64,000 bases of DNA from Methyloversatilis thermotolerans. GTDB lineage: Bacteria > Pseudomonadota > Gammaproteobacteria > Burkholderiales > Rhodocyclaceae. The position numbers were made by a program, and so were the translations under genes. The DNA lies in the NCBI RefSeq assembly GCF_000372885.1, contig NZ_KB889967.1:3051430-3115429 (forward strand). Direction: 5' to 3'. The notes beneath the pieces were generated by a model. It was not told where the DNA came from. It did not search any database and saw only the letters and a program-made list of their open reading frames with translations. Positions 32,089 to 57,898 of the stretch are shown here, in pieces. Position 1 is the stretch's first letter; each line of letters starts with the position of its first letter.

Positions 32089-34212
32089 TCAGAACTTCGC
32101 GTTCAGCGTCAGGCGCAGGGTGCGGGGCTCGACCGGGTGGATGTGGCGGTCGTCGACGCCGCCGGCGGCCTCGCCCGCGAGGCGCGAGGTGTAGTAGTAC
32201 TCGATGTCGTTGTCCTTGCTGTCGAACAGGTTATAGACATCCAGCATCAGACGTACCGACGGCGTAAGCGCGCGACCGACGCGCAGATAGGCGAGCGTGA
32301 CCGTGTCGGACTTGACCGAGCCGTCCTCGACCAGGTCGCGCGGGCCGATGTGACGCACCTGCAGGTGGCCGAACCAGCCGCGCGCCCAGGGATTGCTGTC
32401 GGTCAGGCTGGCGCCGAAGGCAATGACACGGGCGGCGGCACCGGGCACGCGGTCGCCGGCGGGATCGTCATTGGTGAAGCGGGCGCGCGACAGCGATATG
32501 TCGAGGTCGAACAGCAGCCAGTTCTGCGGTGTCCAGCGGGTGGACCATTCGATGCCCTGACGGCGGCTCGCGCGCGTCGCTTCGGTTTCGCCCGCATCGC
32601 CGACGAACAGCAGTTCGGAATCCAGGTTGAGCTGCCACAGCGCGAGCGAACTTTGCACATCGGGCAGCACTTCGGTGCGCACGCCCAGTTCGCCGCCGCG
32701 ACCGCGCGCCAGCGCGTCGACGCGCTGTGCCGGATCGCCGCCCGGCGTCACGCGCGCGGTGGTGCCGCGCGCATCGTTGCTGTGGAAGCCGAAGCCGTAG
32801 TTCAGGAAATATTCGGTGCGCGACCACGGCCCGAAGATGAGCGACAGCTTGGGTGAAGCAATGTGGTCCGACGCGTCGCCGCTGTTGGCGGCGATGGAGC
32901 TGTCGACATCGAAGTCGTAGCGGTCGAAGCGCAGGCCGGCCACGCTGCGCAGCCAGTCGTTCCACTGCACGCTGGTTTCGCCGAACACGCCGACGCTGGT
33001 CTGACGCACCCGGCTTTCCTGCGTGACGGAGGTGGTCCGGCGCGCGACGGTGCTGTAGAGCCCGACCGGATCCAGCCTGTCGTGACGCAGTTGCACACCC
33101 AGGGTGTGCGTGGCGGCACGGCCGCCAAGGTGACCGTCCCAGCTCCGGCTGATCGCGCCCCCATAGGTGTTGCGTCGCTCGGACTGACGGAACTGGTCGC
33201 CGTCCGGATCGTTGTCCAGCACGTAGGTGAAGTTGGACCACAGGTCCAGTTCGGAGCGTATGGCATAGGCCTGCACGCGCAGCACGCCATCGTCACGCAA
33301 CTGCTGGCTGTCCACCGAAAGGCTGTAGCGCCGGCTGCGTCCGCCATCGGTCGGGTCGATCGCATCGTATCGGCCGATCTGTCCGGACTGCAGCGCGCGC
33401 AGCGGCACCTGGTCGGTGGAGTCCCAGCGCGCGGTATAGGCCATGGCGGTAATCGAGGTCCGCTGCGCGCCTTCGCCCAGGGTGTAGCGCAAGACGCCAT
33501 TCACCCGGCGGAAGTCTTCGGGATTGGTCCACGGCCCGTCATTGCGCGACGTTTCAAGCGCGTACAGCAGGGTGCCGGTGGCCAGCGCATGCGAATTCAT
33601 CATCAGCGCGCGACGGTAACCGTCCTCGCCCAGCGTCACTTCCGCCATGCCGGCATCCAGACGGTCGCGCAGTCTGAGCCGTGCCGAGCCGGCGGACGAG
33701 AAGTCGCCTTCTTCGGCGTAATAGGGGCCCTTGCGGTAATCGATGCGCTCGACCAGTTCGGGAATGAGCCAGTTCAGATCGGTGTAGCCGTGACCGTGCG
33801 CATGCGTGGGCATGTTGACCGGCATGCCGTCCACCCAGGTCGCGAAGTCGGTGCCATGGTCGAGGTTGAAACCGCGCAGGAAGTACTGGTTCGCCTTGCC
33901 GCCGCCACTGTGCTGGGTGACGATGACGCCGGGCACGAATTCGAGGATTTCCGCCGGCCGCAGCGTAGGACGGTTCTCGATCAGCCTGGCGGTGACGCTG
34001 CCCTGGCTGGCGGCGTCGGAGGTGCCGACCGCATTGTCGTAATGCCCTTCCACGGCGACCGGGTCGAGGTGGTGGCCGACCGGCGCCGCCTCGTGCGCCT
34101 GCGCGATCACCGGGATGCCGACAAGCGGGAGGCACAGCGCCTGCATCAATGCGCGCGTCAGCCGCGTCGGACGGAATGAGCCCGGCGTGCGGCCCTTGCT
34201 TCCCTGTTTCAT
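32089..34212 (-). CDS. TonB-dependent outer-membrane receptor, probable nickel uptake
   Basis: 707 residues. A signal peptide (cleavage near PVIAQAHE) is followed by an N-terminal plug domain (about 45-170; RPAEILEFVPGVIVTQHSGG, YFLRGFNLDHGTDFATWVDG). A 22-strand-type barrel follows, ending in the Phe-terminated RTLRLTLNAKF. His-rich stretches (MPTHAHGHGYTD, AHEAAPVGHH) could bind metal. A NikR-type palindrome lies 15 bp before the start and nikR is the next gene upstream, so nickel is the most likely substrate. The family assignment is firm; the substrate is inferred. Confidence 0.85.
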   Translation of the reverse strand: MKQGSKGRTPGSFRPTRLTRALMQALCLPLVGIPVIAQAHEAAPVGHHLDPVAVEGHYDNAVGTSDAASQGSVTARLIENRPTLRPAEILEFVPGVIVTQHSGGGKANQYFLRGFNLDHGTDFATWVDGMPVNMPTHAHGHGYTDLNWLIPELVERIDYRKGPYYAEEGDFSSAGSARLRLRDRLDAGMAEVTLGEDGYRRALMMNSHALATGTLLYALETSRNDGPWTNPEDFRRVNGVLRYTLGEGAQRTSITAMAYTARWDSTDQVPLRALQSGQIGRYDAIDPTDGGRSRRYSLSVDSQQLRDDGVLRVQAYAIRSELDLWSNFTYVLDNDPDGDQFRQSERRNTYGGAISRSWDGHLGGRAATHTLGVQLRHDRLDPVGLYSTVARRTTSVTQESRVRQTSVGVFGETSVQWNDWLRSVAGLRFDRYDFDVDSSIAANSGDASDHIASPKLSLIFGPWSRTEYFLNYGFGFHSNDARGTTARVTPGGDPAQRVDALARGRGGELGVRTEVLPDVQSSLALWQLNLDSELLFVGDAGETEATRASRRQGIEWSTRWTPQNWLLFDLDISLSRARFTNDDPAGDRVPGAAARVIAFGASLTDSNPWARGWFGHLQVRHIGPRDLVEDGSVKSDTVTLAYLRVGRALTPSVRLMLDVYNLFDSKDNDIEYYYTSRLAGEAAGGVDDRHIHPVEPRTLRLTLNAKF

Positions 34213-34226
34213 GGCGCTCTCTTTTT

Positions 34227-34256
34227 GTGATGTTTGTTGATTTTTTCTTACATCAC
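34227..34256 (-). promoter_or_regulatory. NikR-type operator before the TonB receptor
   Basis: Perfect 7-bp inverted repeat GTGATGT-N16-ACATCAC (34227-34233 and 34250-34256). Spacing and half-site resemble the E. coli NikR operator GTATGA-N16-TCATAC. It lies 15 bp upstream of the receptor start, where a bound repressor would block the promoter. No other match explains this AT-rich island in the 135-bp gap. Confidence 0.7.
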
Positions 34257-34347
34257 GATGTTGCCAGAAAACGATGACCGATTGATTGCAGCCAGCGCCG
34301 CTTGGAACGGCTTCCGCCCGGAAGGATAGAGGGCGCCCGCGCCGGGT

Positions 34348-34851
34348 TCAGGTAGCGGGCTTGATGTGCACGTGACCGAAGCCGGGGCCGCGCGCGTGGC
34401 GGGCGCGGTAGGGATGCGAGCCAGCGGCCGCATGGTGCTGCGAGGTATCCAGCTCGACGCTGATCACATTGATGTGTCCATGATGCACGCCGCGTTCGGC
34501 GCACACCGCGTCGGCGAACTGCCGCACCGCCGACAGCTCGCCTTTCAGGATGACGGTTTCCAGGCAGTGGTCGTGGTCCAGGTGCGCGTGCATGGTGGAC
34601 ACGGTGAGGTCGTGATGCGCGTGCTGCAAGCCGGTCAGCCGCTCCGACAGGTCGCGCTCGTGATGGTTGAACACATAGGACAGGCAGGCCACGCAATGCC
34701 TGGCCGCGCCGGTCTGCTGATGGGTGCGCTCCAGTTCCGCACGGAACAGGTCGCGCACCGCCTCGGAACGGTTTTCATAGCCGCGCCGGGCGATCCATTG
34801 ATCGAACTGCGCCGCGAGCTGGTCGTCGAGGGAAATGGTGAAACGTTGCAT
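34348..34851 (-). CDS. nikR: Nickel-responsive regulator NikR
   Basis: 167 residues. An N-terminal ribbon-helix-helix (MQRFTISLDDQLAAQFDQWI, YENRSEAVRDLFRAEL) is followed by an ACT-like metal domain with the nickel ligands in the MHAHLDHDHCLE segment (His88, His90, Cys96) and His77/79. It carries a His-rich C-terminal extension (about 150-167) beyond the E. coli length. It binds DNA with Ni2+ to repress nickel import. It lies 53 bp after hoxC, linking nickel control to the hydrogenase block. Confidence 0.93.
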   Translation of the reverse strand: MQRFTISLDDQLAAQFDQWIARRGYENRSEAVRDLFRAELERTHQQTGAARHCVACLSYVFNHHERDLSERLTGLQHAHHDLTVSTMHAHLDHDHCLETVILKGELSAVRQFADAVCAERGVHHGHINVISVELDTSQHHAAAGSHPYRARHARGPGFGHVHIKPAT

Positions 34852-34904: not shown

Positions 34905-36356
34905 TCAGTGCACGGTGCACACCATGCACGGATCGAAGGAACGCACGATGTGCTGCACCGCCACCGGCGTGGTTTCACCGGGCTGCACCGGCGCGCCTTC
35001 GAGCGCGGCTTCCAGCGCGCCGGGGCGGCCTGCCGCGTCGCGCGGCGAGAAGTTCCAGGTGGTGGGCGCAACGATCTGGTAGTTGGCGATGCGCCGTTCG
35101 CGCACCGACAGCCAGTGTCCGAGACTGCCTCGCGCCGCCTCGCCCAGGCCCGCCGCCACCCCCTCGTCCGGCAGGCTGCCCGGCGTGCAGAAGGCCTCGC
35201 CCGGACGCAGCGCGCGCAACCAGTCTTCCATCATCGGCAGCACGCGCGCCAGTTCCAGCAGCCGCGACACGACACGACCGTGCACCGAGGCGCCGTGACG
35301 GCGCACCAGGTCGAGCACCAGCGGATGTCCGCTCGCGAGCTGGCGCGCGATGGCACCGGTTTCCACCACTTCGCCGGCCAGCCTCGGCGCCTTGTTCCAG
35401 GTGTAGGCGCCCGGCTTGTCCGCGACCGGTTCGGTCAGACCCGATGCCGGATGGCGCGCGCCACCCTCGTCGCTCAGCCAGGCGTGGGTCGCGTCCTCGC
35501 GTATCGCCTCGACATCGAGCGGCGACAGCTTGCCGGCCTGCCACACGCCACCTCCCAGCGCATGGCCGCCCGCGGGCTGCGGATAGGCGCCATAGCTCAG
35601 GAAGCGGCCGGGGCCCGGACCGAGCGCGGCAAGCGCGGTGTCGCGCGCGATCTGCAGGAAGAAGCGCAGGTCGCCGCGCTGCGGATCGGCATCCACCCAG
35701 GCATCGAGCGCGGCTTCGCTGTCCAGCGCCGCCACCTCTTCCAGCGCGGCGCCGAAGGTGACGGCTTCCAGGAAGCGCCGGAACTCGCGCACGCGCGCCA
35801 GCAGCCGGCTGCGTTCGGACGCATCGATCGCACGCGTCGAACCGCCCGGATCCAGGCTTTGCGTGTGCGGCCACTTGCCAGCCAGCGTGCCGAGCAGCGT
35901 GAACCAGCGCTGGCGCGCCGCGATCGCCGCGCGTACGCGCTCGCCGGTGTGCGGCGCGAAGCGGCGCGCCGCTTCCGCGTGCCAGGGCCGCCCGGCATAG
36001 ACCGGACGCACGAAGTCCGGCATGAAGAACAGGTAGAAATGGGTCAGGTGATCGGCCAGGTTCTCGGTGGCCAGCACCAGATTGGTCACATGCTGCCCGT
36101 TGGGCGGCATGGTGATGCCACCCAGCGCCGCCAGTGCACGCGCCGCCGCCACCGACTGCGACACCGAACAGATGCCGCAGATGCGCGGCACATACACCAG
36201 CGCATCGTGCGGATCGCGACCGCGCAGGATCTGTTCGAAGCCGCGGTACATCGGCGCATTGACATGCGCCGACACGACACGACCCTCGGCCACGTCCAGC
36301 GTCACTTCCAGATCGCCCTCGACGCGGTTGAAGGGGCCGACGATGAGGCGGCTCAC
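34905..36356 (-). CDS. hoxC: Regulatory (H2-sensing) hydrogenase large subunit HoxC/HupV
   Basis: 483 residues from GTG 36356 (GTGA overlap with hoxB). The L1 motif RICGIC (Cys60, Cys63) and L2 motif DPCMVCTVH (Cys477, Cys480) ligate the NiFe site. The protein ends exactly at the L2 His, with no C-terminal extension. That is the known hallmark of group 2b H2 sensors, which need no maturation protease, and it separates this gene from the two catalytic large subunits in the window. With HoxB it should sense H2 in the cytoplasm and control a HoxJ-type kinase. Confidence 0.92.
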   Translation of the reverse strand: MSRLIVGPFNRVEGDLEVTLDVAEGRVVSAHVNAPMYRGFEQILRGRDPHDALVYVPRICGICSVSQSVAAARALAALGGITMPPNGQHVTNLVLATENLADHLTHFYLFFMPDFVRPVYAGRPWHAEAARRFAPHTGERVRAAIAARQRWFTLLGTLAGKWPHTQSLDPGGSTRAIDASERSRLLARVREFRRFLEAVTFGAALEEVAALDSEAALDAWVDADPQRGDLRFFLQIARDTALAALGPGPGRFLSYGAYPQPAGGHALGGGVWQAGKLSPLDVEAIREDATHAWLSDEGGARHPASGLTEPVADKPGAYTWNKAPRLAGEVVETGAIARQLASGHPLVLDLVRRHGASVHGRVVSRLLELARVLPMMEDWLRALRPGEAFCTPGSLPDEGVAAGLGEAARGSLGHWLSVRERRIANYQIVAPTTWNFSPRDAAGRPGALEAALEGAPVQPGETTPVAVQHIVRSFDPCMVCTVH

Positions 36357-37348
36357 TTCAACCGTGTCCTCTTCGCCACCGGCGGCACCACCACGTGGTC
36401 CGACACCGCGTTCACCTTCACCCGCTTCGGCGTGGCCGACTTGGACAGCGAGGCGAGCGCGACGAACCAGGCCTTGGGCATGTCGGTGGGCAGGCCGATC
36501 GGGATGCCGGCCAGCTTGGGCGTGGCATGGAAGGGGTGGCCCGGTTCCTGGAAGCCCGGCTCGGTGCAGCTTATGCAGGCGTAGCCGCCACGGGTACAGG
36601 AACCTTCGCCATTCCACGGCCGGGTATTGCAGTCGGCATGCGCCTGCGTGCCCTTGCAGCCCAGGTGTTCCATCATGCAGCCGAGGTCCGACGGCTTCTC
36701 GGCGCTGGCCTTGAATTCGTAGTACTCGTTGCGCGAGCAGCCGTGGTGCACAAGCTGGTCGGCGAAGAAGCGCGGGCGACCCAGCGTGTCGAGGTCCGCT
36801 TCGTTGAAGCTGCCGGCGGCCAGCGCCGTCAGCGTGTCGATGACCCAGCCCGGATGGGTGGGACAGCCGGCGACGTTGATGACCGGCAGACCGCCGGCCG
36901 CACGGAACTCCGCGCCGAGCAGGCCGCCGCGCACCTCGTCGTCGTACTGCAGGCCGCAGGCTTCGGTCGGATTGCTGCCGCCAGCGGTGACACCGCCCCA
37001 GGCGGCGCAACTGCCGATCGCCACCACATGGCGCGCGCACGCGGCGAGCCGGCTCACCCAGTGGATCATGGGCTGGCCGGTGCCGGCCATGATGTGGAAG
37101 CGGCCGCTGCCATGCGGGCCGCGCAGCAGCGCACCTTCGATGCACAGCGCATCGAGCGGCAGTTCGCCGTCGAGGATGCGGTCGAACAGCGCGGTCACTT
37201 CGGCGCCGCTTTCCAGCGACAGCGACGGATGCCACAGCAGTTCGATGCCAGCGTCGCGCAGTTCGCCGTGGAAGTCGGTCGTATCGGCGCACAGCAGCGA
37301 CATGCTGCAGCCGCCGCAGCCGCCCGACTGCAACCACAGCACATTCAC
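36353..37348 (-). CDS. hoxB: Regulatory hydrogenase small subunit HoxB/HupU
   Basis: 331 residues, GTG start in a GTGA overlap with the protease gene. There is no Tat signal, so the protein stays cytoplasmic, as expected of a sensor. Cluster ligands are visible in QSGGCGGCSMSLL, IGSCAAWGGVTAGGSNP, VAGCPTHPGW, VHHGCSRNEYYE, and CISCTEPGF. The six-Cys O2-tolerance pattern of the membrane-bound enzyme is absent. Partner of HoxC, with which it overlaps by 4 bp. Confidence 0.92.
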   Translation of the reverse strand: MNVLWLQSGGCGGCSMSLLCADTTDFHGELRDAGIELLWHPSLSLESGAEVTALFDRILDGELPLDALCIEGALLRGPHGSGRFHIMAGTGQPMIHWVSRLAACARHVVAIGSCAAWGGVTAGGSNPTEACGLQYDDEVRGGLLGAEFRAAGGLPVINVAGCPTHPGWVIDTLTALAAGSFNEADLDTLGRPRFFADQLVHHGCSRNEYYEFKASAEKPSDLGCMMEHLGCKGTQAHADCNTRPWNGEGSCTRGGYACISCTEPGFQEPGHPFHATPKLAGIPIGLPTDMPKAWFVALASLSKSATPKRVKVNAVSDHVVVPPVAKRTRLK

Positions 37349-37848
37349 GGGTTCGCTCCCGGCGGGGGCGCGGCGGGCGAGACTTCACCCTGCAGCCAGC
37401 GCTCGGCCCAGACCTGCGCCCGGGCGAGGTCGTCCAGCGCCTGCGCATCCGGTGCCTCGCCCAGCGTCCAGTGCCGGCCGCGCAGCGCGAGCAGCGTGCA
37501 GGCGGGCGGCGCCGCCCGCTGCACATCGACATACACCTGAAGCAGCGCCTCCGGGGACAGCGCGTGGGTGGTGAAATGGCGTTCGCGCTGCGGCCGCACC
37601 GTGCTCACCGCGAAGGGCTGCGCGAGGCCGTGCGCGGCATCGACGAACAGCACGCGCTCGCGGCCCGCCAGATCGACGGCGTGCTCGACCTGGAGCTGGA
37701 AATCGCACAGGCATTCCACGCGGCCGGGGGGCAGCGCGCGCTCGGCGTACTGCGCCAGCCGGTCCACCAGCATGAGGCCGAGGCCGTCGTCGGCGCGCGC
37801 CGGATTGCCCCAGCCCAGTACCAGCAGTGGTGCGACGGGCGCGCTCAC
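37345..37848 (-). CDS. hoxW: Hydrogenase maturation endopeptidase (HoxW type)
   Basis: A 167-residue HycI/HupD-fold protease: GWGNPARADDGLGLMLVDRL (nickel-sensing acidic residue), VLFVDAAHG, and a His in HFTTHALSPE. It trims the C terminus of a NiFe large subunit after nickel insertion. Directly after hoxH (ATGA overlap), so HoxH is its probable substrate. The adjacent HoxC needs no processing. Confidence 0.85.
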   Translation of the reverse strand: MSAPVAPLLVLGWGNPARADDGLGLMLVDRLAQYAERALPPGRVECLCDFQLQVEHAVDLAGRERVLFVDAAHGLAQPFAVSTVRPQRERHFTTHALSPEALLQVYVDVQRAAPPACTLLALRGRHWTLGEAPDAQALDDLARAQVWAERWLQGEVSPAAPPPGANP

Positions 37849-39365
37849 GATGCGGTCTCCGCGGCGTGCGCGGGCGCGTCGCGCAGCAGTTCGCCGCCCG
37901 GGCTGCGCAATACATGGTCGAGCAGGCGGCCGTCGGCCGCGCGCAGGCTCACCGCCAGCGGCATCTGGCCGAGCGCGTGAGTGGCACAGGACAGACAGGG
38001 GTCGTAGGCGCGCACCGCCACCTCGATATGGTTGAGCAGGCCTTCGGTAATCGTTTCACCGTCGAGATGGCGCAGCGCCACCGCGCGCACCGCCTCGTTC
38101 ATCGCCTGGTTGTTGTGGGTGGTCGACACGATGAGGTTGCAGCGCGTGACCAGATCGTCGTCGCCGACTTCGTACTCGTGGATGAGCGTGCCGCGCGGCG
38201 CCTCGATGATGCCGATGCCCGAGCACTGGCGCGGCCCCTCGGTCCGCAGCGGTCCGCCGAGGATGAGCGGATCGTCCAGCAGTTCGGCCACCGTCTCGAC
38301 CCCGTGCAGCAGTTCGATCATGCGCGCCCAGTGGGTGGCCAGCACCGCGTGCACCGGTTGCCCGCCGTGCGCGGCGACGAAGCCCTGGCGCGCCTCTTCG
38401 GCGCGCGGCGTGGGAATGAAATCGCAGTTCTGCACGCGCGCCAGCGGGCCGACGCGGTACCAGCCCTGGTCCACGCCGAGACTGCGGCGGTAGGGGAATT
38501 TCATATAGGTCCAGGGCTTGACCGCCTCGGCTATCAGTTCGCGGTAGCGCTGATCGTCGAAGCCGTCGATGGCGATGCGACCGTCGGCCTCGCGCAGTCG
38601 CAGCACGCCGTCGTACAGTTCCATCGCGCCGTCGCGGCCGACCAGCGACAGCATGGCGGCCGGCGTGTCGGCGAAACCGGCGTAGCGCGCCGGCAGGTTT
38701 TCGTGCAGGCGGCGCGCCAGCGTCACCGCGTCCTGCGCCCAGTCCAGCATCTGCGGCAGTCCGGCGCGCAGCGCGTCGCGCTCGGCCGGATCGACCGCGC
38801 GGTTCATGCCGCCCGGTATCGAGCCGGTGCCGTGAATGCGCTTGCCCGAGGTGATGCGGATCACTTCCTGACCGAACCTGCGCAGCATGACGCCCTGACG
38901 CGCAGCATCCGGAAAGGCGGCCGCCACGCCGACGATGTTGCGGCGGTCGACCTCGGCATCGAAGCCGAACAGCAGGTCGGGCGAGGCGAGATGAAAGAAG
39001 TGCAGCGCGTGGCTCTGCACGATCTGGCCGTAGTGCATGAGGCGACGGATGCGGTCGGCCGCCGGCGGCACCGGCCAGCCACCCACCACACGGTCGAGCG
39101 CCTTGGACGCGGCCAGGTGATGCGACACCGGACAGATGCCGCACAGCCGCTGCACCATGACCGGCACTTCCCAGTACGGCCGGCCTTCGATGAATTTCTC
39201 GAAACCACGGAATTCGACGATGTGCAGCCGCGCCTGGCGCACGCGGTTGTCGTCGTCGAGCAGCAAGGTCACCTTGCCGTGCCCTTCGACGCGCGACAGC
39301 GGGTCGATCGCGATGCGGCGCAGTCCTTCGGGGTCGGCGGCGGTTTCGAGCGGGCGCGTACTCAT
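37845..39365 (-). CDS. hoxH: NAD-reducing hydrogenase large subunit HoxH
   Basis: 506 residues, catalytic NiFe subunit of the soluble group 3d enzyme. L1 is RLCGIC (Cys75, Cys78) and L2 is DPCLSCATH (Cys457, Cys460). 43 residues follow the L2 His (ALGQMPL at the cleavage point), longer than the usual extension of about 24-30 residues, so proteolytic maturation is required. It pairs with HoxY and feeds electrons through HoxFU to NAD+. The gap to hoxY is 4 bp. Confidence 0.95.
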   Translation of the reverse strand: MSTRPLETAADPEGLRRIAIDPLSRVEGHGKVTLLLDDDNRVRQARLHIVEFRGFEKFIEGRPYWEVPVMVQRLCGICPVSHHLAASKALDRVVGGWPVPPAADRIRRLMHYGQIVQSHALHFFHLASPDLLFGFDAEVDRRNIVGVAAAFPDAARQGVMLRRFGQEVIRITSGKRIHGTGSIPGGMNRAVDPAERDALRAGLPQMLDWAQDAVTLARRLHENLPARYAGFADTPAAMLSLVGRDGAMELYDGVLRLREADGRIAIDGFDDQRYRELIAEAVKPWTYMKFPYRRSLGVDQGWYRVGPLARVQNCDFIPTPRAEEARQGFVAAHGGQPVHAVLATHWARMIELLHGVETVAELLDDPLILGGPLRTEGPRQCSGIGIIEAPRGTLIHEYEVGDDDLVTRCNLIVSTTHNNQAMNEAVRAVALRHLDGETITEGLLNHIEVAVRAYDPCLSCATHALGQMPLAVSLRAADGRLLDHVLRSPGGELLRDAPAHAAETAS

Positions 39366-39369
39366 GGCT

Positions 39370-39918
39370 TCAGTCGTAGCGGATCAGTCCGGGCGCCGAT
39401 GCGGGCGCGCGACCGGCCATCAGGTCCTGCAGCAGTTGCCAGAAGGCATCGGCCGGCGGCGGACAGCCGGGCAGCGCGTGATCGATGTGCACCACCTCGT
39501 GTATCGGCAACACCCGGTTCAGCGGCAGCGGCAGCTCCGGGTCATCCGGTACCCGACCATACACCGACTGCAGCACAGTGCCGACATCCAGGTGATTGCG
39601 CAGTGCCGGCAGGCCGCCGGTGATGGCGCAGGCGCCGACCGCCACCAGCACGGTGCAGCGGTCGCGGAAGGCGCGCAGCACCTCGACGTTCTCGGCATTG
39701 CACAGCCCGCCTTCGACCAGGCCGATGTCGCATCTGTCGTGCTCGCCGACGGTCTTGATGTCGGTCAGCGGCGAGCGGTCGAACTCCACCCGCTCGACCA
39801 GATCGAACAGCCGCTCGTCGATATCGAGCAGCGACATGTGGCAGCCGAAGCAGCCGGCGAGCGACACGGTGGCGACGCGCAGCTTGCGCGGCGGTGTGGA
39901 TGCGACCGGCGCATTCAT
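39370..39918 (-). CDS. hoxY: NAD-reducing hydrogenase small subunit HoxY
   Basis: 182 residues; short small subunit with a single [4Fe-4S] cluster near the NiFe site: SLAGCFGCHMSLLDIDE, GACAITGGLPALRN and LPGCPPPADAFW carry the Cys ligands. No signal peptide. Typical group 3d length. ATGA overlap with hoxU. Confidence 0.94.
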   Translation of the reverse strand: MNAPVASTPPRKLRVATVSLAGCFGCHMSLLDIDERLFDLVERVEFDRSPLTDIKTVGEHDRCDIGLVEGGLCNAENVEVLRAFRDRCTVLVAVGACAITGGLPALRNHLDVGTVLQSVYGRVPDDPELPLPLNRVLPIHEVVHIDHALPGCPPPADAFWQLLQDLMAGRAPASAPGLIRYD

Positions 39919-40607
39919 CCGCGCGTGTCCTCGTTATCGAAGCGGCGCCGGCCGATCGGCACGGCAAAGCCGACCCGCTTGGGCAGCAGCGCACCGACCG
40001 GGCAGATGTGGGCGGCACGGTCGTGCACCGACAGCGCGCTGTCGCCGAGGCGGCCGCTCGGGCTGTCGATCAGCAGGCGGGTGGCGATGCCGTGGCCGCC
40101 GATCGCGAATACCCGCTTGCCGTCGATTTCGTCGCTGGCGCGCACGCAGAGCTGGCACAGGATGCAGCGGTTCGGTTCGAACAGCACGTCCGGGTGGCTG
40201 GCATCGACCGGCCGTTCCGGGTTCAACGCCTCGAAATGCAGGGCGGTCATGCCGGCGCGTTCGGCCTGCACCTGCAGCACGCAGTTGCCGCTTTTCTCGC
40301 AGCCGGGGCAGAAGTGATTGCCCTCGACGAACAGCATCTGCAAGAGGCGCAGCCGCTGCGTGGCGAGCGAGGCGGTGCGGCATTCCACCTTCTGGCCGGC
40401 CACCGCCGGCGTGACACAGGCGGCCACCGGCCGGCCGTCGGCCAGCACCGTGCACAACCGGCACGACGCACTGCCCGACACTTCGTCGCTCCAGCACAGG
40501 TGAGGGATGTCCAGCCCGGCGCGCGCCGCGGCGCTCAGTATCGTGTCGCCCGGCTGCAGCGGGACCGGCTGGCCGTCAAGGTCGAAGGTCGGATCGACGG
40601 CGCTCAT
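39915..40607 (-). CDS. hoxU: NAD-reducing hydrogenase diaphorase subunit HoxU
   Basis: 230 residues, homologous to the N-terminal part of NuoG. An N-terminal [2Fe-2S] domain (HLCWSDEVSGSASCRLC, CVTPA), the His/Cys segment GNHFCPGCEKSGNC and a [4Fe-4S] site (RCILCQLCVRASDEIDG, CPVGAL) are present. It passes electrons between HoxHY and HoxF. ATG 40607 lies in an ATGA overlap with hoxF. Confidence 0.94.
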   Translation of the reverse strand: MSAVDPTFDLDGQPVPLQPGDTILSAAARAGLDIPHLCWSDEVSGSASCRLCTVLADGRPVAACVTPAVAGQKVECRTASLATQRLRLLQMLFVEGNHFCPGCEKSGNCVLQVQAERAGMTALHFEALNPERPVDASHPDVLFEPNRCILCQLCVRASDEIDGKRVFAIGGHGIATRLLIDSPSGRLGDSALSVHDRAAHICPVGALLPKRVGFAVPIGRRRFDNEDTRG

Positions 40608-42430
40608 GCCGGTGTGTCCGTGTGCAGATGGGCGCCGGCGTCGTCGCGGCCGGTGGCGCGGCGCGCCGACGACAGTTCGGCATCGAGGTCGACATCCGGC
40701 TGGAACTGCGGCGCGGTCGCGCGCTGCGCGTAGGCGGCGCCGAAATGTCGCAGCGTGTCGCGCAGCGGATTGCAGGCCGAGGCGCCGAGGCCGCAGTGGG
40801 TGCCGCTGTGCAGCGCGGTATCGAGATCGTGCAGCAGTGCGATGTCGAAGGCCGAGCCCTGCCCGGCGCCGCGCGCATGCGCCAGCTTGTCCAGCCGGCG
40901 CACCACCAGTTCGGTGCCGACGCGGCAGGGCGTGCACAGGCCGCAGCTCTCGTGCGCGAAGAAGCGGGCGAAGTGGCGCGCCACCTCGAACAGATCGCGC
41001 GTGCGGTCGAACACCATGAAGGCGCCGGCGCTCGGCACGTCCTCGAAGGCGATGGCGCGGTTGAATTCCGGCGCCGGCACGCAGGTGCCGGACGGCCCGC
41101 CCACCTGCACCGCCTGCGCGTCGCGGGCGCCGCAGTCGTCGAGCATCTGCGCGATGGGCGTGCCCAGAGGGTATTCGTACAGCCCGGGTCGCGCACAGTC
41201 GCCGGACACCGAATGGATCTTGGTGCCGGTCGATTGCGCGGTGCCGATGCCGGCCCACCAGGCGCCGCCACGGCGCGCGATGTGGGCGACCGCGCAGAAG
41301 GTTTCCACGTTGTTCACCACGGTCGGCCGGCCGAGATAGCCGGCCTGCACCGGGAAGGGCGGACGGATGCGCGGCGTGCCGCGCTTGCCTTCCAGCGATT
41401 CGATCAGCGCGGATTCCTCGCCACAGACATAGGCACCGGCACCCAGATGGAGGGCGATATCGAAATCGAAACCGGAGATGCCGCACGCGTCCGGGCCGAG
41501 CAGGCCCTGGGCGCGGCGGCGCGCCAGCACCTGTTCGAGCTGCGGCAGCAGGAAGCGGTATTCACCGCGCAGATAGACAAAGCCCTGCTGCGCGCCGACC
41601 GCGCGCGCCGCCACCGTCATGCCATCGAACACGGCGTCGGCATGACTCGCGAGCAGCACGCGGTCCTTGAAGGTGCCGGGCTCGCCTTCGTCGGCATTGC
41701 AGACGACGACACGCAGGTCGCCGGCCGCGTCGCGACAGGCCAGCCACTTGCGCGCGGCGGGAAAACCGGCACCGCCGCGTCCGCGCAGGCCGGACGCCGC
41801 CACTTCGTCGAGCAGGGCCTGCGGCGACTGCGCGAGCACCACCGGCAACGCGGGTGCGTCGTCCGCCAGACCGCCCAGCAGCACATCGGCGCGCTGCACG
41901 CCATCGACCACGGCGAACCACTCCGCCGGCCACTGCCCGACCGGCGTGCCGGCGAGCAGCAGATCGGCCAGCGCGTCGACGCGCGCCGCGTCCAGGCGGG
42001 TGACGACCTGGTGGTGATTCACCAGCAGCGCCGGCCCCTGGTCGCACAGCCCGGTACAGGAACAGCGGTCCACGCTGAAGCGGCCCTGCGCATCCACCTC
42101 GCCCGGCGCCACGCCGAGGCGCGCGCACAGTTGCGCCAGCAGGGTTTCGCTGCCCAGCATGCGATCGGTGATGTTGTCCGAGAACAGCAGCCGCGTGCGG
42201 CCGACCGGACGGGTGTGAAAGAAGCGGTAGAAACCGGCCACGCCTTCGACCTGTGCCAGCGTGAGGCCGAGCGCGCCGGCGATGTGGGCGAGCAGCGGGC
42301 GCGACAGCCAGTGCGTGACCGCCTGCGTGTCGCGCAGGATCTGCACCAGCGCATGCGGGTCGCGCCGCCAGCGCGCCATGACGGCATCGGCCGCGAGGCG
42401 CGCCGGTCCGTCGCTGTCCGCCGCATCCAT
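40604..42430 (-). CDS. hoxF: NAD-reducing hydrogenase diaphorase subunit HoxF
   Basis: 608 residues. ATG 42430 is chosen because GGAGGG lies 8 bp before it; a TTG at 42436 has no room for a ribosome site. An N-terminal NuoE-like [2Fe-2S] domain (about 1-165; SCTGLCDQGPALLVN) is fused to a NuoF-like domain with the NAD site GRGGAGFPAARKW, the FMN site CNADEGEPGTFKDR and a [4Fe-4S] motif ESCGLCTPCRVGT. This is the H16-type fusion, and no separate hoxE or hoxI is seen. It reduces NAD+. Confidence 0.95.
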   Translation of the reverse strand: MDAADSDGPARLAADAVMARWRRDPHALVQILRDTQAVTHWLSRPLLAHIAGALGLTLAQVEGVAGFYRFFHTRPVGRTRLLFSDNITDRMLGSETLLAQLCARLGVAPGEVDAQGRFSVDRCSCTGLCDQGPALLVNHHQVVTRLDAARVDALADLLLAGTPVGQWPAEWFAVVDGVQRADVLLGGLADDAPALPVVLAQSPQALLDEVAASGLRGRGGAGFPAARKWLACRDAAGDLRVVVCNADEGEPGTFKDRVLLASHADAVFDGMTVAARAVGAQQGFVYLRGEYRFLLPQLEQVLARRRAQGLLGPDACGISGFDFDIALHLGAGAYVCGEESALIESLEGKRGTPRIRPPFPVQAGYLGRPTVVNNVETFCAVAHIARRGGAWWAGIGTAQSTGTKIHSVSGDCARPGLYEYPLGTPIAQMLDDCGARDAQAVQVGGPSGTCVPAPEFNRAIAFEDVPSAGAFMVFDRTRDLFEVARHFARFFAHESCGLCTPCRVGTELVVRRLDKLAHARGAGQGSAFDIALLHDLDTALHSGTHCGLGASACNPLRDTLRHFGAAYAQRATAPQFQPDVDLDAELSSARRATGRDDAGAHLHTDTPA

Positions 42431-42432
42431 GC

Positions 42433-43881
<1,449 letters not shown>

Positions 43882-43996: not shown

Positions 43997-45073
43997 TCAG
44001 CAGATGCGCGGCAACTGCTCGCCGGCCAGCCAGTCGACCACGCGCCGGCCGCCGAAGCGGGTCGCCATCTGCACGAAGCGATGCGGGTCTTCCTGCACCA
44101 CGCCGATGCGCACGGCCTCGCGGCCGCGCGGATGCGCGCGCATGGCGGCCAGCACCGCGTCGGCGGCGGCGGCGGGCACGATGGCAACCAGCTTGCCTTC
44201 GTTGGCGACATACAGCGGATCCAGCCCGAGCAGTTCACAGGCGGCGTCGACCTCCGGGCGCACCGGTATCGCCGCCTCGTCGATCAGCATGCCGACACCG
44301 GACTGGCGCGCGATCTCGTTCAGCGTGGTGGCCAAGCCGCCGCGTGTCGGGTCGCGCAGTGCGCGCACACCGGGACAGACCTCCAGCATGGCGGCGACCA
44401 GACCGTTGAGCGCTGCGGTGTCGGACACGATGGTGGTTTCGAATTCCAGTGATTCGCGCTGCGACAGCACCGCCACGCCGTGGTCGCCGACCGGACCGGA
44501 CAGCAGGATGACATCGCCCGGCCGCGCCTGCGCCCCCGACACACGCACCCCGGGCGGCACCGCGCCGACGCCGGTGGTACTGATGAACACCCCGTCACCC
44601 TTGCCCTTCTCGACCACCTTGGTATCGCCGGTCACCACCGCCACGCCGGCTTCGCGCGCCGCCGCCGCCATCGACTGCACGATGCGCTGCAGATCGGCCA
44701 GCGAAAAGCCCTCTTCCAGGATGAAGCTGGCCGACAGCCAGAGCGGCACGGCACCCATCATCGCCACATCGTTCACCGTGCCATGCACCGACAGACAGCC
44801 GATGTCGCCACCGGGAAAGAACAGCGGCGAAATGACATGGGCGTCGGTCGCCATGACCAGGGTGTGGCCGGCCGGCATGACGAGCGCCGCACCGTCGTCG
44901 CCCTGGCGCAGCCAGGGATTGTCGAAGGCGGCGAGAAAGATTTCGTCCACCAGTTGTGCGGCGGCGCGCCCGCCTGCGCCATGGCTCATGTCGATGCGCC
45001 CGTTGCGGATGTCCAGCGGCCGGACATAGCCGGCACGCACCGTGCCGCCCTTGCTGTCGTCTCTCGCGTTCAT
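43997..45073 (-). CDS. hypE: Hydrogenase maturation protein HypE
   Basis: A 358-residue PurM/ThiL-like ATPase. It dehydrates the carbamoyl group that HypF places on its C-terminal Cys, making the cyanide ligand. The C terminus PRIC-stop carries that Cys. The ATP region GDDGAALVM, SVHGTVNDVAMMGA and VTGDTKVVEKGKGDG are intact. Start ATG 45073 overlaps the hypD stop. Confidence 0.96.
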   Translation of the reverse strand: MNARDDSKGGTVRAGYVRPLDIRNGRIDMSHGAGGRAAAQLVDEIFLAAFDNPWLRQGDDGAALVMPAGHTLVMATDAHVISPLFFPGGDIGCLSVHGTVNDVAMMGAVPLWLSASFILEEGFSLADLQRIVQSMAAAAREAGVAVVTGDTKVVEKGKGDGVFISTTGVGAVPPGVRVSGAQARPGDVILLSGPVGDHGVAVLSQRESLEFETTIVSDTAALNGLVAAMLEVCPGVRALRDPTRGGLATTLNEIARQSGVGMLIDEAAIPVRPEVDAACELLGLDPLYVANEGKLVAIVPAAAADAVLAAMRAHPRGREAVRIGVVQEDPHRFVQMATRFGGRRVVDWLAGEQLPRIC

Positions 45074-46212
45074 GCGCTTGCCCTGACCGGAATATCCTTG
45101 AATCTGCCGTACGCATAGTGTGCCGCGCACGCCCCTTCGCTCGACACCATGCAGGAGCCGACCGGGTTTTCCGGCGTGCAGACGGTGCCGAAAATCCTGC
45201 AGTCGGTCGGCTTCTTGACGCCGCGCAGGATGGCGCCGCATTCGCAGGCCTTGTTGTCGGCCACCGCGCTGTAGCCGATGTCGAAGCGACGCTCGGCGTC
45301 GAACTGCGCGAACTCCGGCCGCATGCACAGCGCGCTGTGCGGCACCTCGCCCAGGCCGCGCCATTCGAACGCGGGCCGCATGGCGAACACCTGCGCCATC
45401 TTGTGCTGCGCGCCGGCATTGCCCTGGCGGTCGACCGCGCGGGTGAATTCGTTCTCCACCTCGGCGCGGCCTTCATTCACCTGGCGCACCAGCATGAGCA
45501 CCGCCTGCATCACGTCCAGCGGTTCGAAGCCGGCAATCACCACCGGCTTGCGATAGGCCGCGGCAAAGGGCTCATAGGGCGCCGAGCCGATGACGATGCT
45601 CACATGCGCCGGCCCGACGAAGCCATCGAGCGGCACCGTGCCGTAGCGGCTCACTTCCGGCGACTCGAGAATGTGGGTGATGGCGGCGGGCGTCAGCACA
45701 TGACAGCACAGCACGCTGAAATTGTTCAGACCTTCGCGCTGCGCGCGCAGGATGGCCAGCGCGGTCGGCGGTGTGGTCGTTTCGAAGCCGATGGCGAAGA
45801 ACACGACTTCGCGCTGCGGATTGTCGCGCGCCACGGTAAGCGCATCGGCCGCCGAATACACCATGCGGATGTCGCCACCGCGCGCCTTCGCGCGCATCAG
45901 CGACAGGCCGCCGGACGCCGGCACGCGCAGCGTATCGCCATAGGTGCACACGATGGCGCCATGATCCAGCGCCAGCCGTATCGCCATGTCGATGCGGCCG
46001 ATGGGCAGCACGCATACCGGACAGCCCGGACCGTGGATCATGCGCACGTTCGCGGGCAGCAGATCGTTCACGCCATAGCGCGAGATCGCGTGCGTGTGGC
46101 CGCCGCAGAACTCCATGAAGCCGTACTGGCGCGACGGGTCGACCTCGGCCTGCAGGCGTTCGGCGATGCGTCGCGCGATGTCGCCGTCGCGGAATTCGTC
46201 GATGTATTTCAT
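45070..46212 (-). CDS. hypD: Hydrogenase maturation protein HypD
   Basis: A 380-residue Fe-S protein of the Fe(CN)2CO assembly complex with HypC. Conserved Cys motifs are EFCGGHTHAI, IHGPGCPVCVLP, and C-terminal CECGAILRG and CTPENPVGSCMVSSEGAC ([4Fe-4S] cluster). GFETTTP is present. ATG 46212 overlaps the hypC stop. Confidence 0.97.
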   Translation of the reverse strand: MKYIDEFRDGDIARRIAERLQAEVDPSRQYGFMEFCGGHTHAISRYGVNDLLPANVRMIHGPGCPVCVLPIGRIDMAIRLALDHGAIVCTYGDTLRVPASGGLSLMRAKARGGDIRMVYSAADALTVARDNPQREVVFFAIGFETTTPPTALAILRAQREGLNNFSVLCCHVLTPAAITHILESPEVSRYGTVPLDGFVGPAHVSIVIGSAPYEPFAAAYRKPVVIAGFEPLDVMQAVLMLVRQVNEGRAEVENEFTRAVDRQGNAGAQHKMAQVFAMRPAFEWRGLGEVPHSALCMRPEFAQFDAERRFDIGYSAVADNKACECGAILRGVKKPTDCRIFGTVCTPENPVGSCMVSSEGACAAHYAYGRFKDIPVRASA

Positions 46213-46445
46213 GGCGTGGCTCCCTTCACCGCTTCGGCCATTTCGCCGAACAGCGCCAGCGTGCGTTCGGCCTCGTCGGGATCGACCATGCCGATCGCGT
46301 GTCCGACATGCACGATGACGTAGTCGCCGACGCGGGCTTCCGGCACCAGTTCGACCGATATGGCCTTGCGCAGGCCTCCCAGCTCGACCAGGGCCTGTTC
46401 GTCGTCGCGCAGTTCGACCACGCGGGCGGGTATCGCTAGGCACAT
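46209..46445 (-). CDS. hypC: Hydrogenase maturation chaperone HypC
   Basis: 78 residues beginning [12 protein letters not shown]; the N-terminal Cys (after Met removal) is essential for carrying the iron ligand complex from HypD to the large subunit. Downstream VGDYVIVHVGHAIGMVD is typical. A second HypC-family protein, HoxL, is encoded at 52080. Confidence 0.95.
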   Translation of the reverse strand: MCLAIPARVVELRDDEQALVELGGLRKAISVELVPEARVGDYVIVHVGHAIGMVDPDEAERTLALFGEMAEAVKGATP

Positions 46446-47596
46446 GCGCGCATCTCCTCGATATGGTGCGGTCCGGTGTGATCCGGCGTGGTGCAGTGTC
46501 CCGCGTGCAGTTGCTGCGCCACCGCCCATGCCTGTCCGAGCGCCAGCCCGGCATCGCCACAGGATGCGGCCTGCGGGCGCAGCACGCGCAGTCCGCCCTG
46601 CTGCAGGACGCGCGCGACGCGCGCGCTCAGCAGCGCATTCATGAAACAGCCGCCGCCCAGGCACACGGTATCGCAGCCGTGCGCGCGTGCGGCGGAGAGC
46701 GCCCACTGTGCGAGCCCGTCGGCCAGCGCGGCATGAAACGCCGCCGCCGCCTGTTCGACCGCGGGAAAGCGTCGGTCGAGCAGCGCGGCCAGCGCCGGTC
46801 GCAGATCCAGCCGGCCATCGGCGCCCAGTGCGAACAGCCCGTCGGTCGACACCTCGCCGCCGCGCCAGCGCGTGGCCGCCTGTTCCAGCGCGATCGCCGC
46901 TTCGGCTTCGTGCGACTGCCGCACGCTGAGACCGAGCGCACCGGCCGCCGCGTCGAACCAGCGGCCGGTGCTGCTGGTGGCCGGGCTGTTCAGACCGCCC
47001 TCGAGCATGCGGCCAACCACGCGCGCCGCCTGCGCACCGACCACGGGCGCGAAGCGGCTTTCGATCTCGTCGTTCCGGCCCAGCGCATGCAATGCCGCGG
47101 CGGCCATGCGCCACGGCTCGCGCGCGGCGATGTCGCCGCCGGCCAGGCGCAAGGGCCACAGGCTGCCCAGACGGCGCCAGCCCTGCGGCGCCACCCACAG
47201 CAGTTCGCCGCCCCAGGCGCCGCCATCGCTGCCCAGGCCGACGCCGTCGAGCGCCAGACCGATCACCGGCCCGGCGATGCCGTGCTCGGCCATCACGGCG
47301 GCAATGTGCGCGTGGTGGTGCTGCACGCCGATGGCCGGCACGCCCAGATGCGCCGCCAGCGCGTGCGCGCGCTGCGTGCTGTAGAAATCCGGATGCAGGT
47401 CGTGGGCGACTGCGGCGATGCCCGTGCGCGCCCCGGCCCGCAGCGCATCGAGCGAGCGATCCAGCGCCGCGCACGCGGCGGGATCGCCGAGGTCGCCATG
47501 CACCGGCGACCAGTGCGGCTCGCCCTGCTCGAGCAGGCAGGCCGCGTTCTTCAGCCAGGCGCCACAGGCGAGCACCGCGGGCAGCCCGGTGTTCAT
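46436..47596 (-). CDS. hypF: Truncated-type carbamoyltransferase HypF
   Basis: 386 residues, only the C-terminal Kae1-like carbamoyltransferase half of HypF (a full HypF has about 750-770). [68 protein letters not shown] and [12 protein letters not shown] are intact. The acylphosphatase, zinc-finger and YrdC domains are absent and no upstream remnant exists, since hypB overlaps the start. This matches the short HypF1 form described for Cupriavidus. It transfers carbamoyl to HypE. Confidence 0.92.
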
Positions 47597-48495
47597 GCCG
47601 CGGCTCCGCGCTGCGCCGTCGCCGACAGCCGGCCATCCAGCCAGGCCAGCCATTCCGCCATGCCTTCGCCGGTGACCGCGGACAGCCGGATGACCGATAT
47701 CGCCGGATTCACGCGGCGCGCCAGTTCGATGCAGCGCTCGACGTCGAAGCGCAGATGGGGCAGCAGATCGACCTTGTTCAGCAGCATGAGGGCGGACGCG
47801 GCGAACATGTCCGGATACTTGAGCGGCTTGTCCTCGCCCTCGGTCACCGACAGCACCGCGACCTTGGCCTGCTCGCCCAGATCCCACATGGCCGGGCACA
47901 CCAGATTGCCCACGTTCTCGATGAACAGCAGGCTGCGCGGGGCCGCATGCGCGAAGCCGTGCAGCCGGGCGAAGGCCTCGCCCACCATGGGCGCGTCGAG
48001 ATGGCAGCCCTTGCCGGTATTCACCTGTATCGCCGGGGCGCCGGTGGCGCGTATGCGTTCGGCGTCGAAGGCGGTCTGCTGGTCGCCCTCGATCACCGCC
48101 ACCGGCAACTGCGGCGCATGGGCCTTCAGCGCGTCTATCGTGGCGCACAGCAGCGTGGTCTTGCCGGACCCCGGGCTGGATACGAAATTGAGCGCGGTCA
48201 CGCCCTGCGCCGCGAAGCTCGCGCGGTTGCGCGCGGCGATGCGATCGTTCTCGCCGAGGATGTCGGTCTCCAGCCGGATCGCGCGCGTCTGGCTCATGCC
48301 GGGCACCGACACGCGCGCCGCGCCGGCGCCGAAGTGCAGGTCGCCGGTCGCCGCATCCACCGCGACCGCGGATGCCGCCCTGGTACGCGCCGGCCGTCGC
48401 GCCGCCGGCGAATACGGATTCGGCGCATGCGCATGTCCCGCCCCGTCCATCGTCACTCCGCCGCCGTCACCGGCGCATCCGCATACCACGCACAT
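47593..48495 (-). CDS. hypB: Hydrogenase nickel-insertion GTPase HypB
   Basis: 300 residues; ATG 48495 with GGAGGAGG upstream. N-terminal [10 protein letters not shown] nickel site, a weak His region (HAHA only), then a SIMIBI GTPase: P-loop [41 protein letters not shown] and [10 protein letters not shown]. It delivers nickel to the large subunits with HypA. The unusually short His tract suggests limited nickel storage. Confidence 0.95.
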
Positions 48496-48512
48496 CGCGT
48501 CCTCCTCCCGCT

Positions 48513-48857
48513 TCAATCATTGACCATGAGATCGACCACCCGGAGCTCGGTGCCGCCGGTCGGCTGCAGGCGGTAGCCGCCGCAGTGCGGACAGGCGTCG
48601 CCGCGCTGCGCCATGGCCACCGTCATGCTGCAATCCATGCACCAGGCCTGGCCCGGCGGCTGGTCGATATCGATGACCGCGCCCTCGAGCACGGTGCCGG
48701 GTGCGATGGCTTCCAGCGCGAAACGCAGCGCACGCACCTCGACACCGGCGAGCGCACCCGCTTCCAGCCGCAGCCGGGCAACGCGGCTGAAGCGTTCGCG
48801 CTGCGCGGTCTGCTCGACCAGTCGCAGCACGCCGCCGGCGAGGCTGGCTTCATGCAT
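48513..48857 (-). CDS. hypA: Hydrogenase nickel chaperone HypA
   Basis: 114 residues starting MHEASL (nickel ligand His2). The zinc site is CMDCSM and CPHCGG. It partners HypB. ATG 48857 overlaps the end of hoxV by 8 bp. Confidence 0.95.
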
Positions 48858-54231: not shown

Positions 54232-54834
54232 TCAGACGCGCGTGGCGAGCATGAACAGACCGGCGGCCGCGAACAGCGCCGCCTGCGCCCGCCACAGCCA
54301 GCCGCCGCGGGTGGCGAGGTGTGCGCCCAGCGACAGACCGGCGCCGTGCAGCAGCGCCGAGGCGGCCATGAAGCCGGCGACATAGGCGAGGAAGGATGCG
54401 CCGGGCACCCACTCGGCGCCGTGCGCCACGCCATGCAGCAGGCCGGCGACCGCAGTGACACCCAGTCCGGCCGCCTGCGGCAGACGCGCGCGACCGGCGA
54501 GCAGCAGGCCGAACAGGGCCACGCTCAGCGCGGCACCCGTCTCGGTCAACGGTACGGCGCCGAAGGACAGGCCCAGCAGCGCACCGGCGAACAGGGTGAG
54601 CATGAACAGCGTTGGCGCGACCAGCCGGCGCGATGGCGGCAGCGCGGCGGCCGACCACAGACCGACCGCCAGCATGGCGAGCAGGTGGTCGAGGCCGGAG
54701 AGCGGGTGCGTGAAGCCGGCAGCGAAGCCGCCGACATGGCTGTGCGCGACGGCCGCCTCATGCGCCTGGGCCACGCCCGCCGCCGCGAGCAACACGGTGG
54801 CGAAGGCAGCACGGCGGATCGGGGACATGTTCAT
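54232..54834 (-). CDS. hupE: HupE/UreJ-family metal permease
   Basis: 200 residues. An N-terminal signal-like helix ends AQAHEAAVAH; the family motif HPLSGLDHLLAM and a second His site GLLHGVAHGAEW lie in five to six further helices. HupE proteins transport nickel (UreJ for urease). Inserted between hupL and hoxZ, it offers an inner-membrane step after the TonB-dependent receptor. Confidence 0.9.
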   Translation of the reverse strand: MNMSPIRRAAFATVLLAAAGVAQAHEAAVAHSHVGGFAAGFTHPLSGLDHLLAMLAVGLWSAAALPPSRRLVAPTLFMLTLFAGALLGLSFGAVPLTETGAALSVALFGLLLAGRARLPQAAGLGVTAVAGLLHGVAHGAEWVPGASFLAYVAGFMAASALLHGAGLSLGAHLATRGGWLWRAQAALFAAAGLFMLATRV

Positions 54835-56746: not shown

Positions 56747-56815
56747 CTTCGTGTTCCTTGTCTGGCGGCGGGACGGTCCGCGCCGCCCTCACGGCGGACG
56801 CGGCACGGCCGGCAC

Positions 56816-57898
56816 TTACTGTTCTGTGGTGGAGGTGGCGTCCTGCTTGACCGACGCGCGCTTGATCGCCGATACCGCGGCGTGCGCGGCGACTGCCGCG
56901 CCGACCACACCGGCGGCGGTGGCGCCGACCTGGTCGGCATTCGCTTCGATGCCGAAGGCGTGGATGTCGGTCAGGCGGTCGTAGAACGAACCCTTGTCCC
57001 AGAAGCCGTCCTCGGAACAGCCGATGCAGCCGTGGCCGGCCTGGATCGGGAAGCTGGTGCCTTCATTCCAGCGCACGGTGGAACAGGCGTTGTAGGTGGT
57101 CGGGCCCTTGCAGCCGACCTTGTACAGACAGTAGCCGCGACGCGCCGAATCGTCGTCCCACGCTTCGACGAACTGGCCAGCGTCGAAATGCGGGCGGCGG
57201 TAGCACTTGTCGTGGATGCGCTGGCTGTAGAACATCTTGGGCCGCCCCTGGCGATCCAGTTCGGGGATGCGGTCGAAGGTGAGCATGTAGGTGATGACGC
57301 CGGTCATCACCTCGGCGATGGGCGGACAGCCCGGCACCTTGATGATGGGCTTGTCGAAGATCACCTTGTGCACCGGCGTGGCCTGGGTCGGGTTGGGCTT
57401 GGCCGCCTGCACGCAGCCCCAGCTCGCACAGGACCCCCAGGAAATGATGGCCTTGGCATCCTTGGCCACATGGGTGAGCTGGTCGATGAAGGGCTTGCCG
57501 CCGATGATGCAGCTCATGCCATCCTGGTTCAGCGGCGGGTTGCCCTCGACCGCCAGGATGTAGTTGCCCTTGTACTTGGTCATGATCTCCTCGAGGATGG
57601 CTTCCGCCTGGTGGCCGGCGGCGGCCATCAGCGTGTCGTCGTAATCGAGCGAAATCATGGACAGCACCACATCCTTGGCCAGCGGATGGGCCGAGCGTAT
57701 GAAGGACTCGGAACAGCAGGTGCATTCCAGACCGTGCAGCCACAGCACCGGCGTGCGCGGCTTGGTTTCCATCGCGTGCGCGATCTGCGGCACGAAGGCC
57801 GGACCGAGCCCGAGCGAGGTGGCGGTCAATGAACAGTACTTGAGGAAACTGCGGCGCGAGATGCCCTGGCGACGCATCACCTCGTAGAAGGTTTCCAT
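56816..57898 (-). CDS. hupS: Membrane-bound hydrogenase small subunit HupS/HoxK
   Basis: 360 residues. A Tat signal [11 protein letters not shown] lies at 13-23. Proximal-cluster ligands are Cys59, Cys61, Cys62 (LECTCCSES), Cys157 and Cys162 ([10 protein letters not shown]) and Cys191 (PGCPP). The six-Cys set including the two extra Cys (61 and 162) is the known signature of the [4Fe-3S] cluster in O2-tolerant group 1d hydrogenases. A C-terminal helix (about 325-345) anchors it in the membrane. It is preceded by FNR-box and sigma-54-like sites. Confidence 0.96.

Follow-up and report, generated by a model that had tools for sequence, protein, structure and literature searches.

A predicted, diverged NikR operator before a putative nickel receptor gene in Methyloversatilis thermotolerans

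Few systems for the uptake of nickel through the outer membrane have been demonstrated. In Helicobacter pylori, FrpB4 and FecA3 are under the nickel-responsive repressor NikR, according to PMC7055735 and PMC11247825. PMC7055735 gives the Escherichia coli NikR operator as GTATGA-N16-TCATAC, and PMC545781 describes a delta-proteobacterial NikR signal, GTGTTAC-N13/14-GTAACAC, with operators that differ between classes (GTATGAT versus GTGTTAC). Predicted nickel/cobalt TonB-dependent receptors in PMC3400609 include Bll6948, Daro_3944, RPA_4757, pHCG3_081 and Daro_1684, in a cluster labelled 'Nickel, Cobalt'; PMC2771747 likewise has a region of receptors predicted for nickel and cobalt, and PMC11247825 counts Daro_3944 and Bll6948 among nickel receptors. 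Here we analysed 64,000 nucleotides of Methyloversatilis thermotolerans (NCBI RefSeq assembly GCF_000372885.1, contig NZ_KB889967.1, positions 3,051,430 to 3,115,429; hereafter the window), in which a TonB-dependent receptor gene (32089..34212, minus strand) has nikR (34348..34851, minus strand) as its next gene upstream. The 135-bp intergenic region between them (34213..34347, minus strand), the presumed place of promoter and operator, carries a perfect inverted repeat, GTGATGT-N16-ACATCAC, at 34227..34256, which we interpret as a diverged operator of the neighbouring NikR. An earlier reading of this DNA (the original prediction) had taken the repeat for a NikR-type site governing nickel uptake. 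That interpretation is right in kind and wrong in detail: the receptor is probably NikR-controlled and probably carries nickel, and its novelty was overstated, receptors of this family having already been predicted for nickel/cobalt in the sources just named (PMC3400609, PMC2771747). At the level of titles and abstract openings, we found nothing in the literature on NikR control of this receptor in Methyloversatilis.

The palindrome (GTGATGTTTGTTGATTTTTTCTTACATCAC on the plus strand, the site itself being assigned to neither strand) is an inverted repeat whose two 7-bp arms match perfectly on either side of a 16-bp spacer. As originally described, it lies 15 bp before the receptor start (site 34227, minus-strand ATG 34212), with 14 bases in between, and nikR is adjacent. 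The accompanying claim that the spacer equals that of E. coli holds only when the 7-bp arms are set against 6-bp ones; the two sites measure 30 and 28 bp overall and share just ATG-N18-CAT. As a bare sequence the repeat is unremarkable, and its position is less ordinary. The GC-rich window contains 11 perfect 7-N16-7 repeats, so the palindrome by itself proves little; of 5000 dinucleotide shuffles of the 135-bp gap, 0.52% had a perfect 7-N15/16/17-7 repeat that began within the last 60 bp. The 4.16-Mb genome has a single exact copy of the palindrome. When up to 3 mismatches are allowed, 80 places match, against 56 for a reversed control pattern, so that near matches carry little signal. It is the comparison among relatives, rather than the palindrome itself, that we take as the decisive evidence.

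This comparison covered 13 genomes of the genus, our own (G000) and 12 others (G001-G012); 12 of the 13 hold a near-full-length receptor gene and one (G007) a remnant only. A perfect GTATGA-N15/16-TCATAC box stands directly before the orthologous receptor gene in seven of the 12 others (G001, G002, G003, G004, G006, G010 and G012), and imperfect boxes occur in three more: GTATGC-N16-TCATAC in G008 (11/12), TTATGC-N16-TCATAC in G011 (10) and GTATGA-N15-TCTTAA in G005 (10). The inverted repeat of our genome lies just before a predicted metal-uptake gene, with canonical boxes at the orthologous place in those seven. The nikR gene is present in 11 of the 13 genomes, adjacent to the receptor gene in ours and in 10 relatives; no copy turned up in G009 or G007. 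The G009 site is decayed, reading GTAGCA...TCATGT at the aligned place, and its best upstream score of 8/12 is the commonest one in shuffled relatives. In G007 just a receptor fragment is left and the best hydrogenase score, 19.9 bits, stays below the cut-off; HupE passes its cut-off in neither genome. A joint loss is apparent here, the genus genomes without nikR having either a receptor remnant (G007, L048) or a decayed operator (G009, L030). The ATG-N18-CAT spacing is common to our own site and the N16 sites of the genus, and by eye the outer bases differ alike in both arms. In a tree of 18 receptors, ours nests inside the genus, beside that of G004 (support 88/88), and the GTATGA form also occurs outside the genus; the GTATGA form is therefore probably ancestral and the GTGATGT form derived.

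Beyond the genus we used the best 80 of 586 confirmed loci from a contig scan, mostly from beta-proteobacteria and 45-76% identical in the best segment. The upstream stretch was scored in 79 of them (L117 was too short), with a box score out of 12 that allowed A for T at position 4. A perfect 12/12 NikR box precedes the receptor gene in 12 of the 79 relatives (9 if A at position 4 is disallowed), three others score 11/12 and 64 score at most 10/12. Among 1580 mononucleotide shuffles none reached 12, 0.25% reached 11 and 3.9% reached 10. The original prediction of a NikR-type site was thus sound for the receptor family, which carries such operators in seven of the 12 other genus genomes and 12 of the 79 relatives, and failed for the arms of our own site, GTGATGT/ACATCAC, which are not E. 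coli-type GTATGA half-sites N15-16 apart. A supposed hybrid site in Methylibium (L074) was dropped, its 10/12 match being near chance (3.9% of shuffles). Clustering of neighbouring genes over the 80 loci gave one family present in 17 loci, whose single tested member was HupE_UreJ_2; we did not use it as evidence.

The NikR encoded beside the site (167 residues with a His-rich C-terminal tail; Pfam NikR_C, PF08753, and RHH_1, PF01402) scores 207 bits against NCBIfam NF002815 (cut-off 83) and 164.9 against TIGR02793, just below the cut-off of 175.45. It aligns with E. coli NikR (1q5v) at 7.3e-38, MQRFTISL against MQRVTITL, and the residues that we take to be the nickel ligands (H76, H87, H89 and C95 in E. 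coli numbering) are conserved in this alignment. By its ribbon-helix-helix (RHH) and NikR_C domains and its conserved ligands, the protein qualifies as a NikR. The recognition strand MQRFTISLDD is identical across the 11 genus NikRs compared, which rules out changed recognition residues as the cause of the new arms. The His-rich C-terminal extension (window 34348-34450), about 34 residues beyond E. coli NikR, is found in most genus members compared.

The receptor (707 residues; Pfam Plug and TonB_dep_Rec), which we predict to be an outer-membrane nickel (or nickel/cobalt) receptor, has the plug and beta-barrel of TonB-dependent receptors. Its AlphaFold model (predicted local distance difference test, pLDDT, 86.5; predicted template modelling score, pTM, 0.85) adopts the corresponding fold, and the best matches among solved structures are FecA (Z 36.3), PqqU (35.9) and BtuB (35.5). 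The fold tells no substrate, since FecA, PqqU, BtuB and siderophore receptors tie as matches. Mean column identity in an alignment of 22 sequences is 60%, and His 101, 119, 139, 477 and 692 are invariant there as well as in a 42-sequence alignment. Judged by sequence, the receptor groups with those for which nickel or cobalt had earlier been proposed as cargo. Its identity to Dechloromonas receptors is 49-51%, and tblastn against pHCG3 of Afipia carboxidovorans OM5 gave a single match, 44% identical over 95% of the receptor (E 3e-173). From the plasmid and the position we infer that this match is pHCG3_081, the record having other locus tags. It is divergent from nikR and lies beside hypF, hypC, hypD, hypE and hypB, and by our reading the gap between nikR and the receptor gene contains GTATGA-N16-TCATAT. 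A receptor on Cupriavidus necator pHG1 (49% identical) is encoded about 4.4 kb downstream of hoxN, near the regulatory hydrogenase, and a related one in Paraburkholderia acidisoli directly behind hoxN and beside nikR. No NikR-type palindrome was seen upstream of the receptor gene on pHG1 (241 bp scanned) or in Methylorubrum extorquens CM4 (short stretch scanned). The genome of M. thermotolerans has five TonB_C matches (TonB proteins).

In 9 of the 12 genus genes (L020-L026, L029 and L030) TGGCA[CT][GA]-N4-TCGCG directly adjoins the operator (in G009, what is left of it) and scores 12.4-13.1 of 14.8; it comes close to the sigma-54 consensus, TGGCACG-N4-TTGCA. Scores of at least 12.4 arose in 13 of 2400 mononucleotide shuffles. 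Two matches of at least 12.8 lie elsewhere in the window, neither before the receptor gene, and since similar matches occur there the element is suggestive only. The hydrogenase cluster encodes a sigma-54-dependent response regulator, which would fit such a promoter. No sigma-70 consensus promoter was found in 34100-35000, and the one terminator-like match in the intergenic region is at chance level. An RNA element was ruled out at the level of Rfam, no family of which reached its gathering score anywhere in the window.

What we observe directly is the site, the genes and, in relatives, an operator of the NikR type at the corresponding place; on these we build an explanation that, as a whole, we rate at a probability of about 0.6. 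With enough nickel in the cell, Ni-loaded NikR would bind the altered site just before the receptor gene and silence it. Under nickel shortage the cell would make the receptor, which would use TonB energy to import a nickel (or nickel/cobalt) complex across the outer membrane; HupE, as its putative partner, would move the metal across the inner membrane, and HypA and HypB would insert nickel into three hydrogenases.

Several observations weigh against this explanation. GTGATGT arms occur in none of the 12 other genus genomes, and no such palindrome at 12/14 or better was found upstream of the receptor gene in the 79 relatives, so that the palindrome which the original prediction proposed to look for before orthologues is confined to one of 13 genus genomes. 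Our own genome has neither an exact GTATGA-N13-17-TCATAC nor a one-mismatch version at N16; the best canonical box in the gap, GTAAGA-N15-TCACAA, scores 9/12 (10 with A allowed at position 4), overlaps the palindrome and has a score reached by about 4% of shuffles. The arms appear to have changed though the NikR recognition strand is constant in the genus, and a reason for the change is missing. The sigma-54-like element is missing in our genome as well (score 9.1), and in G008 (8.7) and G011 (8.4). G009 retains one hydrogenase large subunit without nikR or HupE, which contradicts strict coupling. Among the relatives, 67 of 79 lack a perfect box, and nikR lies within the examined stretch in only 11 of the 80 loci, so most boxes are not explained by nikR adjacency. 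An equally perfect twin, GTGATGT-N15-ACATCAC, lies at C1:2006829-2006857 (L153:1501-1529) over the ribosome-binding region of fliK, in the fliI-fliJ-fliK stretch of a flagellar operon with no visible nickel link, which means that such repeats arise, or are used, apart from nickel; the twin may be chance or a second site of some other regulator. Finally, across 101 genomes of the order GTATGA-N13-17-TCATAC occurs in 27 places (24 genomes), as does the reversed control (27 places, 21 genomes).

Broken down by relationship, box and control stand at 20 versus 5 places in our own family, 8 versus 0 in the genus and 7 versus 22 outside the family, so that outside the family raw numbers say little, and it is the location of the boxes that counts. 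We examined 24 of the 27 places. Eleven precede TonB-dependent receptor genes, three NicO nickel permease genes, two DUF4198 genes and one the urease gene UreD, and seven lie inside or beside other open reading frames. Eight of the 11 receptors belong by their coordinates to the family of our own and three are distant. The latter (L055, L057 and L060), from three genomes, represent a second, diverged subfamily of TonB-dependent receptors with 27-29% identity, and each of their genes follows a perfect NikR box. The DUF4198 proteins encoded directly behind NikR boxes (L068:784-1491 and L070:1540-2244) are candidate periplasmic nickel-handling proteins.

On present comparisons the operator of our genome appears to have departed from the textbook sequence. 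A narrower account, which we regard as possible but doubtful, is that the operator was symmetrically rewritten within the genus from GTATGA to GTGATGT while the NikR strand stayed unchanged and the abutting sigma-54-like promoter was lost, either because shape or contacts in the flanks let NikR tolerate the new half-site, or because a second NikR, specific to this lineage, took the site over.

Among the alternatives, the one that leaves the proposed regulation intact is that the receptor is under NikR but imports cobalt, or a cobalt/nickel complex, rather than nickel. Cobalt stays a candidate because a 44% identical relative in M. extorquens CM4 adjoins cobalamin biosynthesis genes, and the literature cluster bears the label 'Nickel, Cobalt' in PMC3400609. 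We nevertheless hold it unlikely: our receptor gene lies next to nikR in a hydrogenase cluster, G007, where only a remnant of the gene is left, shows no hydrogenase above the cut-off, and boxes of the same type precede nickel permease genes and a urease gene in relatives.

The palindrome could instead be a chance or decayed leftover, NikR control having been lost in this lineage or resting on the weak GTAAGA-N15-TCACAA. The abundance of perfect 7-N16-7 repeats in the GC-rich window, the perfect twin before fliK, the genome-wide absence of canonical half-sites and the loss of the promoter element would all suit such an outcome. Decay, however, should break symmetry, as it has in G009 and G011, whereas our site is perfectly symmetrical at the orthologous place, a position that 0.52% of shuffles reproduce, and nikR is intact, which makes this alternative improbable.

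A second NikR-family gene lies at C1:2955251-2955709 (L160:7279-7770), in a row with genes for type III glutamine synthetase, urea carboxylase and allophanate hydrolase, and is found in our genome only among the 13. It is odd to meet a relative of NikR next to a urea pathway that involves no nickel. As the most concrete candidate for another regulator binding the palindrome, this paralogue, which passes two NikR cut-offs and differs in its recognition strand (SRISMSL) and, by its translation, in a Met at the metal-binding Cys position, has in its favour that our genome alone combines it with a GTGATGT site and that the fliK twin, too, would be in keeping with some regulator that is not NikR, but it seems quite unlikely, since no GTGATGT-type palindrome at 12/14 or better was found in the 18 kb around its own operon and the classical nikR adjoins the receptor gene here and in 10 genus relatives.

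Returning to NikR control of a nickel receptor, the surrounding genes would provide for the remaining steps. Upstream of nikR, on the same minus strand, lie the three [NiFe] hydrogenases and the HupE that the original prediction had named, all supported by Pfam matches, together with Hyp maturation genes. The third hydrogenase comprises a large subunit (34905..36356; PF00374) and a small subunit (36353..37348; PF01058, PF14720). A hydrogenase with a diaphorase-like module follows (37845..42436; PF00374, PF01058, Fer2_4, Complex1_51K), with large (37845-39365) and small (39370-39918) subunits and parts that we presume to call HoxU-like (domains in the open reading frame 39915-41486) and HoxF-like (40604-42436). 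Next come the sigma-54-dependent response regulator (42433..43881; PF00158, PF00072, PF02954), which we label HoxA-like on our own assumption, and the maturation genes for HypE-like, HypD, HupF/HypC, HypB and HypA proteins, associated with nickel insertion (43997..48857; PF00586, PF01924, PF01455, PF02492, PF01155). HupE/UreJ, a putative inner-membrane nickel permease (54253..54792, genome 3105682-3106221; PF04955, 147 bits), has its HupE_UreJ domain inside this hydrogenase cluster, nickel transport being a putative function. An uptake-type [NiFe] hydrogenase (54890..57898; large 54890-56746, PF00374, 706 bits; small 56816-57898, PF14720 and PF01058) and a PAS histidine kinase (58120..59595; PF02518, PF08448, PF00512), presumably HoxJ-like in our own labelling, complete the row. 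A search of the genome gave no NicO-family nickel permease, which makes the HupE proteins the obvious inner-membrane candidates. Three further HupE/UreJ-domain genes stand in a row outside the window (C1:578103-579837), a trio found elsewhere in the genus only in G008 and G011.

The comparison lends support from natural genomes to the earlier nickel (or cobalt) prediction for this receptor family and points to NikR control in several lineages. Within one genus it also offers a small natural series of operators (intact, imperfect, rewritten, and lost together with nikR) on which one could measure the rules by which a NikR operator changes. Set against the E. coli operator, our site is alike in its ATG-N18-CAT core and in an adjacent NikR with an E. 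coli-like recognition strand; it differs in its 7-bp GTGATGT arms and in preceding an outer-membrane receptor gene rather than the nikABCDE importer. The delta-proteobacterial signal likewise illustrates that NikR operators can diverge and yet stay 27-28-bp inverted repeats, but its arms are others, and its divergence lies between classes whereas ours lies within one genus. With H. pylori FrpB4 and FecA3 the locus would share NikR-controlled TonB-dependent nickel uptake, a likeness drawn without direct sequence comparison; the NikR sites of H. pylori are more degenerate. The Afipia pHCG3 receptor gene is divergent from nikR, unlike the arrangement here, where nikR stands upstream in the same orientation and the operator has altered arms. 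C. necator pHG1 shares a 49% identical receptor near hoxN, with HoxN in place of the HupE of M. thermotolerans.

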